A stretch of DNA of 64,000 nucleotides from an uncultured Myxococcales bacterium. GTDB lineage: Bacteria; Myxococcota_A; UBA9042. The notes under the pieces were generated by a model. It saw nothing but the letters and a program-made list of their open reading frames with translations. It made no database searches and was not told where the DNA came from. Position numbers and translations under genes: made by a program. The stretch covers positions 62,001-126,000 of the forward strand of contig CAIMLR010000026.1 in assembly GCA_903842345.1 (NCBI GenBank), written 5' to 3'. This document shows, piece after piece, positions 35,028 through 40,606 of the stretch (its first letter is position 1; every line of letters begins with the position of its first letter).

Positions 35028-35636
35028 TCAATTCGCTCCCAATTCGCTCAGCCACGCCACCGCCGCGCGCGCCAGTTGGCTACCCTCGGGCGTACCCACG
35101 CTCTCCGGGTGAAATTGCACCGACTCGCACGCCCATTTGGCGCTGCGCAGCCCCATGATCAACCCATCGTCCAGCCACGCCGAAACCTGCACGTCCGCCG
35201 GCAGCGAGGCGGCATCCACGGCGAGACTGTGATAACGCATCGCCAGAAAGGGCTGCGGCAACCCGCTGAACAGCCCTATGCCGTCATGTTGAATGAGAGC
35301 CTGACGGCCGTGAATGGGTTCAGGCGCGCGCACGACCTGCCCGCCGAGCGCGATCGCCAGCGCTTGATGGCCGAGGCAGACGCCCCAGATCGGCAGCTTG
35401 CCCAGCACCGCGCGGAGAAAGGGCAGCAGCTGCCCGGCATCCTCCGGCGCATTCGGCCCTGGAGACACGACCAGCGCGTCCGGAAGCGCGTGCTGCAGTG
35501 CGTGCAGATTGGCGTCCGTGTTGCGCACGACGCGGAGATCCAGGGCGATACCCGTGGTTTGCGCCGCGGACATCAGCAAGTCAGCAAGGTTCCAGGTGAA
35601 CGAATCGTGGTTGTCCAGCAGCACCACGCGCTTCAA
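35028..35636 (-). CDS. Glutamine amidotransferase of TrpG/PabA type
   Basis: 202 residues. Class I glutaminase triad present: GVCLGHQ (Cys87) and QFHPES (His176, Glu178), with LLDNHDSFTWNLADL and VVSPGPNAPEDAG at the N-terminus. It delivers ammonia to a chorismate-using synthase (anthranilate or aminodeoxychorismate). No trpE or pabB is in the window, so its partner is elsewhere. The ATG overlaps the stop of a large lipoprotein gene (ATGA), and the stop is followed by the 41-residue membrane protein, an unusual setting for this enzyme. Whether it serves tryptophan or folate synthesis cannot be told. Confidence 0.9.
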   Translation of the reverse strand: MKRVVLLDNHDSFTWNLADLLMSAAQTTGIALDLRVVRNTDANLHALQHALPDALVVSPGPNAPEDAGQLLPFLRAVLGKLPIWGVCLGHQALAIALGGQVVRAPEPIHGRQALIQHDGIGLFSGLPQPFLAMRYHSLAVDAASLPADVQVSAWLDDGLIMGLRSAKWACESVQFHPESVGTPEGSQLARAAVAWLSELGAN

Positions 35637-37750
35637 GGCAGCACGGGGTAGACGTGGACGCTGCGCCAGGTGGCAATTGTCGTCGCGGTGGGCTGGCTGA
35701 GCTGCGGTGGGAGGATCTGGTTGGAGGCGGCGCTGCCATCGCCGTTGCCGAGCACGCAGGCGATCTTGAGCGGCGCGCCGCTGGCCGGGATCCCGTTGGG
35801 ATAGAGCAGCGCGAGGCTGATGCTGGCCTCAACTGCGGCGTTGCTGCTGCTGGCCTGGACGATGCCCTGGAGCCACGGCAAGTCCGCGAGGTTGCTCATG
35901 CCGCGCCAGCCGGCGTTGGTGGAGCCGGCCAAGTCGCCGCCGCCAAATGACGCCATGCCGACGCTCGCGAACGCGAAGTCGATGCCGATCTGGCTGTCGC
36001 TGACCGTGTAGAGGTTGCCGAGCGCGTTGTCGACCGCGCCGCTGGCGTCACCAATCGCGCTGGGACTCGCCGCGCCGGTGCCGCTGCCGTAGTCGACGTC
36101 GAGGTAGCACGCGATGGCGTTGAGCGGCTCGGTGGTGCCTTTGACGCCGACGTAGAGGTTGTTGGCGTCGTACGCGATCCACAGCTGGTTCAGCTCGTTG
36201 GTCTTGGTCAAATCCGCCGGGTTGTCCCAGTTGCTCAGCGTGTCATTGATGGCGCTGAGCGACATCGCGTTCCAGTCGGAGTCCAGGAGCCCGTCCACAA
36301 TCGGCGTGTCGATCGGCACGACGTCCAGCGCCGCCGCCAAGCTCAGCATTGCACCGCTTGTCGGCTGGATGGCGACGTCGGCGAACGCGGGCGGGAGAGG
36401 CGGCACGGTGACGGAGAGGCCCTTGCCGGCGATGAGCTGCGGATTGCTGCCGACGCCGAACATCGTCGCGTCGGCGACGGACGTGAACTTGACGCCAAAC
36501 GCGGTGTTCAGGTTGTCGCCGAGCAGGATGACCGTGCCGCCGCCCTTGGCCGCGGTCCACGTGGGCTCGATGCCGGTGAGCGTCGCAACCGGCGCGCTCG
36601 TCGTGTCGGCCGTGTCGGTCGTGCCTGCATCGACGTCCGTCGTGCCGGCATCCGTGTCCACAGGCGCCTTGCAGATGCCGTTCACGCACGTGTCGCTGCC
36701 GGTGCACGGCGGGTCGCAGCTGAGCACGGGCTTGCCCGGCACCACAAACGCCGTATTCAGCGTCTTGCCTTTGGAGTCCTTGGACAGAATCACCGGCACG
36801 CTTTGCCACGTGGCGTCAATCGCTGACGCGGTCCACGCCAGCACGCCATCCGGCAGGCCGTTGCCGCCCTGCTTGTACTCCTGACCATCGATCGGATCCG
36901 CGTCGCCTTGGGTCGTCACGAACGTGAACTGCACTTCATCGCCGGCATTGAGCGGCCCATCGTGCTTGCCCAGGTTCTGCTTGAGCACAAACGTCAGGAT
37001 GCCATCGCCCGCGACGGCGTCGCCCTTCAGGCCGTCGTCCAGCAACTGCACCGGCGTCCACTGGTTCAGCGTGCCTTTGACAAAGAACTTGAAGTCGTTG
37101 GTGTTCCAGGATGCGTACGCCTTGTTCAGCGCCTTGGTGTCCAGCGTGATCTTGGCGTCGAACGTCCCGAATTTCGGCAGCTTCATCCCCGGCACGGCAA
37201 AGGTCCCGCCCTGGCCTTGCTGGATCGTAAACGTGCCGTTCGCGCCCACCCACATCCAGTTGTTGAACTCGTTGAGCGCGCCGTACTCAAACAGCGTGTC
37301 CTTGGTCGCGACGAATTTGACCTGGTTGCTGAAAATGTGATCGCCCGCGGTCGCGCCCGCTTGCTCGTGGCCGCCGGGCTGCGCGCCGTCATCATAGAGC
37401 GCGACGAACGGTCCGTCGGTCGGCAGCCAGGACGTCGCGTACGTGATGCTGTTTGTCGCTTCGTCAAAGACGAACGAGCCGGTCCACTGCATGTCGCCGT
37501 CGGTGAACGTCTGGTTGGCGCTGTCGTCAACGGCGAACGTCAGCCAGACAAAGTCGCCTTTGACGATGGCATCGCCGTCGACCGTGTCGGAAGTCGCCGT
37601 GCCGTCGCTGGCGAGGCCATCGAATAGCGCGGTCACGTCGCCGTGAATGTCAGAACCGCCGGCGGCGTCGAGAACGGCGTTGCCGCCTTGCGCGGGCGAG
37701 CCACATGCAGCCAGCAAAAGCGCCGGTACCAGCCAAAATTTCGAGATCAT
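35633..37750 (-). CDS. Large lipoprotein with IPT/TIG and CBM9-like domains
   Basis: 705 residues from ATG 37750. The lipobox LLLAAC is close to the start, followed by an Asp/Ala/Thr-rich spacer. The N-terminal 350 residues contain two beta-rich blocks with Trp/Asp repeats (DDSANQTFTDGDMQWTGSF; NTNDFKFFVKGTLNQWTPV). A Cys-rich piece (CDPPCTGSDTCVNGICKAP) leads into an acidic Asp/Thr linker, then an IPT/TIG immunoglobulin-like domain (about 387-480: TLTGIEPTWTAAKGGGTVIL). The last 220 residues start DGLLDSDWNAM and include LWIAYDANNLYVGVKG, the signature of CBM9/DOMON-like domains. Likely a cell-surface binding protein. It precedes, and overlaps by four bases, the trpG-like gene. Confidence 0.7.
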   Translation of the reverse strand: MISKFWLVPALLLAACGSPAQGGNAVLDAAGGSDIHGDVTALFDGLASDGTATSDTVDGDAIVKGDFVWLTFAVDDSANQTFTDGDMQWTGSFVFDEATNSITYATSWLPTDGPFVALYDDGAQPGGHEQAGATAGDHIFSNQVKFVATKDTLFEYGALNEFNNWMWVGANGTFTIQQGQGGTFAVPGMKLPKFGTFDAKITLDTKALNKAYASWNTNDFKFFVKGTLNQWTPVQLLDDGLKGDAVAGDGILTFVLKQNLGKHDGPLNAGDEVQFTFVTTQGDADPIDGQEYKQGGNGLPDGVLAWTASAIDATWQSVPVILSKDSKGKTLNTAFVVPGKPVLSCDPPCTGSDTCVNGICKAPVDTDAGTTDVDAGTTDTADTTSAPVATLTGIEPTWTAAKGGGTVILLGDNLNTAFGVKFTSVADATMFGVGSNPQLIAGKGLSVTVPPLPPAFADVAIQPTSGAMLSLAAALDVVPIDTPIVDGLLDSDWNAMSLSAINDTLSNWDNPADLTKTNELNQLWIAYDANNLYVGVKGTTEPLNAIACYLDVDYGSGTGAASPSAIGDASGAVDNALGNLYTVSDSQIGIDFAFASVGMASFGGGDLAGSTNAGWRGMSNLADLPWLQGIVQASSSNAAVEASISLALLYPNGIPASGAPLKIACVLGNGDGSAASNQILPPQLSQPTATTIATWRSVHVYPVLP

Positions 37751-37788: not shown

Positions 37789-40473
37789 CTAATCGACCGT
37801 GACTTCGTCCAACAGGATGACGGTGTCGTAGATCGAGTCGCCCTTGTCCGTGGCGAAGAACTTCAGGTTCACTTTCTTGTCGATGCCGGAGAGGCCGCTG
37901 ACGTCCGTGCAGGTCTTCTGCCACGGGGTCATCCAGACGCCGCCCTGGTCAAAGGACACGTCGGCTTGGGTCAACGTCTTCCACTGCTGGCCGCACTTGC
38001 ACGCGGCACTGCCGGGATCGCACGGCGACTTGCCGCCGCAGTCGTAGGGGCAAAGCTGGTCGATCCACACGTCCGTCATGGTGATTTGGCCGGAATCCGC
38101 GGTCAGCGTGGCGCGGAATTCGTCCATGTACGAGGAACCGCACCATTCGATGAATTCCTCGCTGTAGAACTTCCAGAAAAAGCACAGGTTCTGCTTGTTC
38201 TTGTCGACGCAGAACGGCTGCTCCAACGAGCCGTTCTCGGTCGTGAAGCCCAAGCCCGTGGAAATGATGCCCATGAACTTGCCCGCGACGGGAACGGTCT
38301 CGCCGAGGCGGGAGACCACGCGGCCGTCGCCGACCGGCTTCCAGCCCGTGACCTTGCCGGTGTCCCAGCTCGGATTGATGAGGTTGGCGTCCTTGGTGTT
38401 GGCGGCGCTGTCCCCGTACAAGCGCATGTGCGCGCCGGCGTGCGCGGGATCTTCGCCCGGGACGATGGCCTGCAACACGCTCAAGCCGTTGTTGATGAGG
38501 CCGTCAAACAGGCCCCAGCCTTTGAGGTACGCGTAGTCGGCGTTGACGTAGTCCGAGTAGCCGATGACGGCCGCGGCGCCGGCAGCGATGAACTGCAAGG
38601 CCATCGAGCCGTTGTACATCGAGCGGCATGCGCCGAGGTACACAATGGACGCCGGGAATTTCTCCGGCGAGTGGCGGCGCACAAATGCGGGGAGAAAGCC
38701 GTAGGTCGAGTCGCCGACGACGACGCGGCCCGTCATGATGTCGGCCTGCGTGTAGTCGACGCAAACGCCGCCGCTCATCGACGTCTTGACGCAGGTTTCC
38801 GTGGGCTTGCAGCCATTGCTGGACTGGTCGCAGCTGCCGCTGTTGGCGGAGAGCGCGCTGCAGTCGACGTTTTCGCCGGACCAGATGACTTCCTGCGAGC
38901 CGAGATGTTCCCACGTGAGCGCCTTCTTGGCGTCCGCGTCCATCGTCAGGAACATGGAATCGCCGTGGCCGGTAATCGCGATCACGCCGTACGTCGCCAT
39001 CTGACGGTAGTATTTGAGCAGCGCGGCGTTGTCGCTGTAGGAATCGACGGCGAACGGCGGGCACTGCTTGGCCTTGAGCGCGGCGCCGGCCTGTGCGGCT
39101 TCATCGCCACCGGTCGCGGCAAACTCGGCTGCGAATGGCGCGAGCGCGAGCGCCCGACGCGTGCCAACGGAGTGGGTTGGCAACGCGGCGCCGTCGCCGG
39201 ACGGCGGACCACCTGCGCCGCGGAGGCCCTTGGACGCAAGGTTGAGCGCGCCCACGCGGCCCGTCTTGTAGCGAATCCAGATGTTGCCGCCGTCCGTCGT
39301 GCCGGCCTCCGCAACCGTCGCATCGGCTTGGACGGCCGCGAGCGCCGCCGCTTGGGCAGTCGCCGCAGGCGTGCCGCCGCCGGTTGCGGTCTTGTAATCG
39401 CCGCTCACCTTCTTTTGCAGGCCCACGATGGCGCTGCACTCAGACTGCGAAAAATGCGCCACCGCGTCGACTTCAGCGACCGGCGAGAGGGCCTGATACG
39501 TCGTCACGGCCGAACCGCTGAGCTTCACGCTCACGGTCGCGCGCACGCGGAAGCGGTAGATCTTGGGCGCGCTGGCGGTGAGGGTCAGGCACGCGGAGTA
39601 CACGCTGTCCTTTTGCGCGTCGTCGCAGTTGCCGCCGTTGCCGTTGTCCTGGAGCTTGTCGTAGTCCTGAATCGGCTTGCCGGTCTCGTCGACTTCAACA
39701 AGTTGGATCGTCGACGCGTCCACGACGCTGCCTGCGGCCGCCGCGCCTGGCACTGGCATCGCCACAACGAGCTTGGATGACTCGCCGACAAAGATCGCGT
39801 TGGGCGAAATGATCGGCGGGCCGTCAAAGGAAAACAGCGGGTTGTACGTGAGGTGAATGGAATCCGCCGCCGTCTGCGCGCCCTTGGTCGCCGTGACCGT
39901 GACGGTATTGTCGCCCTGGTCAAGGGTCAGGATGTCGCTCTGCCAGAATTCCTCGCACACCGGCTGGGCTGAACCCGCGCCGCAGACGACGCCCTTGGTG
40001 CCGTTGGCCGCCGACCACTCGATCTTCTCCGGGTGGCCCCAGGCGACGCCGGAGAGCGCGGCGCTCGCGCCTTCGTTTTGCGCCCAATCGCGGCCGCTCG
40101 GGCCGAGGATCTTGATGAGCAGTTCCTTGTATTCGTCCGGCTGCGTGGCTGCGTCGCCATCTTTTTGCCACGCCACGTCCGTGTCGCTGCCAATCGTGCC
40201 GTCAGTGCCCGCGGTCGAGTCGCCGGAATCGTCCTTCGCGATGTCGGAGGCGTCGCCGCCGATGGTGTCCGGCAGATCCGTGGTATCCGCCGCAGCGTCC
40301 TGATCGGTGCCCGTGTCCACGCCAGAAGTCGCGTCGCTGTCCGCGCCATTGGCGCCAGTCCCGTCCACGGTGGAGTTGCCGGAGCAGCCGCTTGCGCACG
40401 CGAATGCGAGGGCGGCCGCGGCGGCCAGGGCGTGCGCAGGCTTGGCTGAAGAAAGACCGAGAAAACCAAACAT
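37789..40473 (-). CDS. Large lipoprotein with putative caspase-like (clan CD) dyad
   Basis: 894 residues from ATG 40473 (GGAGG upstream). A signal sequence with Cys (FACASGC) and a 60-residue Asp/Thr/Ala linker are followed by an Ig-like region (about 140-260). Residues about 480-680 show a clan CD cysteine-protease-like pattern: strand YGVIAITGHGD (His503) and strand SIVYLGACRSMYNG (Cys616), then GAAAVIGYSDYVNADYAYLK and an amphipathic helix, as in gingipain/CHAT folds. The stretch between His and Cys is long (113 residues) and holds a Cys-rich insert (CKPTETCVKTSMSGGVC). The C-terminal 200 residues are a beta-rich adhesin-like domain. Protease activity is inference. Confidence 0.6.
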   Translation of the reverse strand: MFGFLGLSSAKPAHALAAAAALAFACASGCSGNSTVDGTGANGADSDATSGVDTGTDQDAAADTTDLPDTIGGDASDIAKDDSGDSTAGTDGTIGSDTDVAWQKDGDAATQPDEYKELLIKILGPSGRDWAQNEGASAALSGVAWGHPEKIEWSAANGTKGVVCGAGSAQPVCEEFWQSDILTLDQGDNTVTVTATKGAQTAADSIHLTYNPLFSFDGPPIISPNAIFVGESSKLVVAMPVPGAAAAGSVVDASTIQLVEVDETGKPIQDYDKLQDNGNGGNCDDAQKDSVYSACLTLTASAPKIYRFRVRATVSVKLSGSAVTTYQALSPVAEVDAVAHFSQSECSAIVGLQKKVSGDYKTATGGGTPAATAQAAALAAVQADATVAEAGTTDGGNIWIRYKTGRVGALNLASKGLRGAGGPPSGDGAALPTHSVGTRRALALAPFAAEFAATGGDEAAQAGAALKAKQCPPFAVDSYSDNAALLKYYRQMATYGVIAITGHGDSMFLTMDADAKKALTWEHLGSQEVIWSGENVDCSALSANSGSCDQSSNGCKPTETCVKTSMSGGVCVDYTQADIMTGRVVVGDSTYGFLPAFVRRHSPEKFPASIVYLGACRSMYNGSMALQFIAAGAAAVIGYSDYVNADYAYLKGWGLFDGLINNGLSVLQAIVPGEDPAHAGAHMRLYGDSAANTKDANLINPSWDTGKVTGWKPVGDGRVVSRLGETVPVAGKFMGIISTGLGFTTENGSLEQPFCVDKNKQNLCFFWKFYSEEFIEWCGSSYMDEFRATLTADSGQITMTDVWIDQLCPYDCGGKSPCDPGSAACKCGQQWKTLTQADVSFDQGGVWMTPWQKTCTDVSGLSGIDKKVNLKFFATDKGDSIYDTVILLDEVTVD

Positions 40474-40606
40474 GGCGATGCCTCCGGGCGCTGGGACCAA
40501 GCCGTTCAGCGTACCCAACCCAGTACCGGCAGGCAAGCACAAAGGCTCACAAAATGCGCGACGCGGGCAGAATCGGAGGGCCGCCAAATCACGCGGGCAC
40601 GGGGAC

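Follow-up and report, generated by a model that had tools for sequence, protein, structure and literature searches.

Clan CD cysteine peptidases carry a catalytic dyad in which a histidine precedes the cysteine, the histidine being followed by a conserved glycine and the cysteine standing behind a hydrophobic strand; autoprocessing is known in this clan (PMC12445089). In CHAT proteins (PF12770), e.g. the TPR-CHAT protein Csx29 of Craspase, the His-Gly pair follows a hydrophobic strand and the cysteine a later one; the dyad of Csx29, H585/C627, has a spacing of 42 residues (PMC9729208). Peptidases of family C25 (gingipain type, PF01364) represent an extracellular type of clan CD peptidase, and the C11 lipoproteins of Bacteroidales (fragipain, DpnB) are lipid-anchored, surface-exposed and process secreted proteins (PMC11169675).

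The window, i.e. the whole 64,000-nucleotide stretch of DNA that was analysed, encodes a predicted lipoprotein that resembles these systems in different respects. With CHAT proteins it shares the His-Gly after a hydrophobic strand and the Cys after a later one, a GAxAVxGY-like segment with a helix behind the cysteine, and the profile register of both residues; in contrast to them, the window protein scores below the CHAT cut-off, is predicted to be exported and lipid-anchored, lacks TPRs and contains a Cys-rich insert, its His-Cys spacing being 113 residues versus 42 in Csx29 (PMC9729208). The likeness to C25 consists in the extracellular clan CD peptidase type and in a profile similarity above shuffled controls, whereas the window protein has no C25 match and its own genome gave no match to C25 at all. 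The C11 lipoproteins offer a functional parallel, not a membership, in the predicted layout of a lipid-anchored surface endopeptidase of clan CD: they belong to another peptidase family and phylum, the window protein has no C11 match, and its Ig-like domains, choice-of-anchor-L-like domain and Cys insert are extra. The initial annotation had called a lipid-anchored, surface-exposed caspase-like protein of this architecture unusual; lipid anchoring is not new, because the surface lipoproteases of C11 type have already been described in Bacteroidales (PMC11169675), and the statement is right only in part. New are the unannotated family itself, its Cys-rich insert and a putative protease/pseudoprotease gene pair.

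Gene, domain order and neighbouring genes

The features of the locus are as follows (read from the sequence unless another basis is given in brackets):

37789-40473, minus strand: open reading frame of the 894-residue predicted lipoprotein
40481-40485, minus strand: Shine-Dalgarno-like GGAGG, 7 nt before the ATG
40384-40473, minus strand: signal peptide with lipobox ASGC, residues 1-30, predicted lipidated Cys30
40141-40383, minus strand: Asp/Thr-rich low-complexity linker, residues 31-111
39451-40140, minus strand: two tandem Ig-like beta-sandwich domains, residues about 112-341 (confident part of the AlphaFold model and Foldseek)
39325-39447, minus strand: helical hairpin preceding the catalytic domain, residues 343-383, with the conserved Cys346 (modelled helices, pLDDT about 75-80)
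38404-39336, minus strand: CHAT/C25-like catalytic domain, residues 380-690 (CHAT matches, profile alignments, consensus score)
38965-38967, minus strand: predicted catalytic His503 (conservation; aligns with the CHAT His)
38761-38862, minus strand: Cys-rich insert, Cys538-Cys571 (Cys conservation among members)
38626-38628, minus strand: predicted catalytic Cys616 (conservation; aligns with the CHAT Cys)
37795-38391, minus strand: choice-of-anchor-L-like C-terminal beta domain, residues 695-893 (NF038133 match)
35633-37750, minus strand: downstream lipoprotein gene (TIG-like), 38 nt past the stop (usual neighbour)

The start of the reading frame at 40473 is backed by the upstream GGAGG and by orthologues with the identical first methionine. 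The lipobox occupies residues 27-30, and its cysteine, Cys30, is kept in 58 of the 60 members covering that site; with signal peptide and lipobox cysteine the protein has the features of a bacterial lipoprotein, and lipidation is predicted. The Ig-like region was matched by Foldseek to two-domain Ig proteins (E about 1e-5). The C-terminal 199 residues resemble the choice-of-anchor L family NF038133 (curated NCBIfam cut-off 27 bits), which was matched by 39 of 40 members with a best E of 9.9e-9; the window protein itself (E 9.8e-6, 25.2 bits) falls slightly short of the cut-off and is not assigned to that family. This C-terminal likeness is found family-wide, whereas anchoring is here predicted by the N-terminal lipobox. 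The same choice-of-anchor-L-like domain forms the C-terminal end of another Cys-rich protein of the own genome (L003, G000:C42:132398-132913).

The order of a diacylglycerol-kinase-like gene, this gene, the TIG-like lipoprotein gene and a pabA-like gene is kept in several genera; the first and last are what we take these flanking genes to be from reading their sequences. Orthologues of the TIG-like lipoprotein were present in five of the six loci covering that spot, the exception being L033, in which the pabA-like gene directly follows. Since it is missing there, and since no homologue was found near the second paralogue L066 within the stretch examined, the TIG-like lipoprotein was rejected as an obligate partner. 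No link between the gene and known defence systems was detected by PADLOC. The record L038 (CAMDBH010000023.1), titled as a Klebsiella pneumoniae MAG, has this myxobacterial locus in conserved gene order and is probably mislabelled.

Relation of the predicted catalytic domain to CHAT and C25

Searched alone, the window protein matched no Pfam family (C25 included) and nothing among the PDB sequences; PDB profile searches with three alignments returned nothing relevant, no solved clan CD structure being matched. Of two AlphaFold models of the window protein, the first showed only the Ig-like domains and the helical hairpin well, its catalytic region being mostly below a pLDDT of 50, and the second, made for residues 340-700, had a mean pLDDT of 46; the input alignments were shallow, with 7 and 9 rows. 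Strands were modelled just ahead of His503 and Cys616, mostly at a pLDDT below 50 that gives them no weight, and the Foldseek search with the catalytic-domain model, itself of low confidence and derived from a shallow alignment, gave no significant match. As a result of this low model confidence over the catalytic domain, support for the fold comes from the sequence only.

Among the members of the family, CHAT was the recurring enzymatic Pfam match (14 of 74 members, all sub-threshold, best E 5.2e-4), and no competing non-protease enzyme family matched the catalytic core in these member-by-member Pfam searches. The curated Pfam cut-offs are 24 bits for CHAT (PF12770) and 23 bits for Peptidase_C25 (PF01364). 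The best natural member scored 20.0 bits against PF12770, none of the natural members tested reaching the cut-off; the majority consensus of ten distant or insert-free rows, which is not a natural sequence, passed it with 26.1 bits (E 7.2e-6), and the same consensus remained below the C25 cut-off with 11.8 bits.

For a comparison of profiles, CHAT and C25 profiles were built from the domains of related genomes and aligned to the family profile. The hhalign score against CHAT was 32.7, a value reached by none of 150 column-shuffled controls (maximum 24.4) and, in a repeat, by none of 100. After removal of the insert columns, one 150-column CHAT alignment spanned both catalytic residues, placing ITGHGDS on ATHGY and YLGACRS on LSACDT, i.e. 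His on His and Cys on Cys. The profile of the distant relatives reached 41.8 with CHAT and 40.4 with C25, and no control scored higher than 18.9. The caspase-like fold proposed in the initial annotation thus gains sequence-level support from the dyad and from CHAT and C25 comparisons that score above all column shuffles; the resemblance to CHAT which had been suggested for the segment behind the cysteine was borne out as well, as the GAxAVxGY stretch aligns with CHAT domains together with the dyad and its strand contexts. That the HG and xxC motifs arose convergently in an alpha/beta domain of other descent, which would place the protein outside clan CD, would agree with the missing Pfam match of the window protein and with the uninformative structure models; it appears highly improbable, however, because the profile alignments to CHAT and C25 beat all shuffled controls, those to CHAT with the dyad in register, and because CHAT is the only enzymatic Pfam family that recurs among the members.

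Distribution of the family and joint loss of the dyad

Matches to the protein query were found in 49 of 379 genomes of the phylum, 48 of them belonging to the own class, of which 52 genomes were sampled; usually, two paralogues are present. The catalytic-domain profile detected six genomes outside the class, including one that the protein query had found. Besides the window protein, the own genome encodes one more full-length homologue, of 40% identity, and a third protein, which has only the C-terminal domain in common. In the tree, each of the two paralogues of the own family has a clade to itself with full support, and the duplication therefore predates this family. Searches for relatives among viral contigs and among plasmids found none.

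Both predicted catalytic residues were located as first described, His503 in GVIAITGHGD and Cys616 in SIVYLGACRS with a spacing of 113 residues, and their arrangement (GHG...ACR) agrees with the clan CD motif of a histidine before the cysteine, a conserved His-Gly and a cysteine after a hydrophobic strand, as given in PMC12445089. In an alignment of 75 members, His503 is kept in 73 of 75 and Cys616 in 72 of 74. If distant members are included (92 rows), both residues are present in 86 rows and both are missing from four, and no complete member has lost just one of them: the two single-residue rows belong to one gene, which an in-frame TGA divides into two halves. This conservation is far beyond chance. 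The split orthologue (L008 / L036, G181:C379) is interrupted by a single in-frame TGA inside the insert, which may be a sequencing error or mark a broken gene.

The four members without the dyad form one clade (SH-aLRT 99); a copy with intact dyad is L075_3685_4941. The flanks are visible for three of the dyad-less genes (L168, L169 and L170, in G226, G267 and G133), and in each case an intact copy on the same strand immediately precedes the dyad-less gene; the fourth, L166 (G249), is located at a contig edge. Judged from the sequences, this is the pattern of a putative protease with a derived pseudoprotease. A different explanation, namely that a surface adhesin uses the CHAT-like fold for binding or as a scaffold, the dyad being maintained for structural reasons or for a reaction other than proteolysis, would be compatible with the adhesin-like architecture (Ig-like and choice-of-anchor domains) and with the one clade that keeps the remaining protein without the dyad. 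We regard it as unlikely, since the histidine and the cysteine are retained in all other members, relatives in other families of the phylum included, while most other columns drift, and since dyad loss is confined to one clade of duplicates, which have an intact copy as neighbour in all cases with visible flanks.

The protein is probably a lipid-anchored cysteine endopeptidase of clan CD, of CHAT/C25 type, that acts on exported or surface proteins. As such, it would be exported by the Sec pathway and then tethered to the outer membrane through Cys30, presumably at the cell surface, where the flexible Asp-rich linker and the two Ig-like domains would hold up the clan CD-type endopeptidase domain. 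The thiol of Cys616, activated by His503, would attack and cleave exported or surface proteins; close to the active site, the Cys-rich insert would probably form a disulfide-knotted lid with an influence on access or stability, and binding of surface partners is the probable role of the C-terminal choice-of-anchor-L-like domain. Neither a substrate nor an S1 specificity was readable from the sequence. As a non-exclusive version of this endopeptidase reading, the protease might process itself rather than cut other proteins, a fragment being set free by cleavage in the linker, the Ig region or the C-terminal domain: the multi-domain, lipid-anchored layout with its long linker and the autoprocessing precedent in clan CD (PMC12445089) would fit, but conservation of the domains extends as far as the C terminus, and we consider self-processing possible, if rather doubtful.

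The family libraries searched give no protease annotation, yet a copy is present in nearly every sampled genome of the class. If active, these proteins would extend the surface clan CD proteases, so far known from Bacteroidales, by a CHAT-like branch that is lipid-anchored and comes with natural inactive paralogues and insert-free relatives, so that simple comparisons could test what the dyad and the insert each do.

His-Cys spacing and the Cys-rich insert

The initial annotation had set the 113-residue spacing against a usual range of 30-50 residues. The spacing indeed exceeds that of CHAT domains, but the range was too narrow, as His-Cys spacings of 41-84 were seen in those CHAT domains of related genomes whose dyad could be read. 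Family members that carry the insert have spacings of 112-135, and L080, which lacks it, has 83.

The Cys-rich insert described before is present between His503 and Cys616; it is clade-specific, however, being absent from L080 and from most distant members, in which the dyad is kept. The insert is therefore an addition to the core fold, and its candidacy as a part of the catalytic core was rejected. Five cysteines (Cys538/548/555/561/571) lie between the dyad residues, this number being found in 65 of 72 intact members; Cys548/555/561 are kept in 74 of 74 and Cys571 in 71 of 74. The insert weakly resembles small Cys-rich modules (Dickkopf_N, Lustrin, TIGR04201).

A more far-reaching interpretation, to which we give little credence, is that the window protein would be the first member to be described from a class-wide, hitherto unrecognised surface protease family whose insert would act as a redox-sensitive active-site lid, one lineage having added the adjacent, co-oriented pseudoprotease as regulator or substrate trap; here Cys571, which disappeared along with the dyad, may form a pair with Cys616 or protect it. 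None of the four dyad-less members has Cys571 (38761-38763), and every intact member with the insert has kept it. The dyad-less members keep Cys548, Cys555 and Cys561 and have gained extra cysteines, the insert having been rebuilt. Because all four form one clade, the common loss of Cys571 and the dyad counts as one event at most; with a single co-loss clade and a rebuilt insert therein, a C571-C616 disulfide is only an idea. In L002, L057, L067, L084 and L085 (own genus, second paralogue) Cys538 is substituted by proline, and the number of insert cysteines is even.
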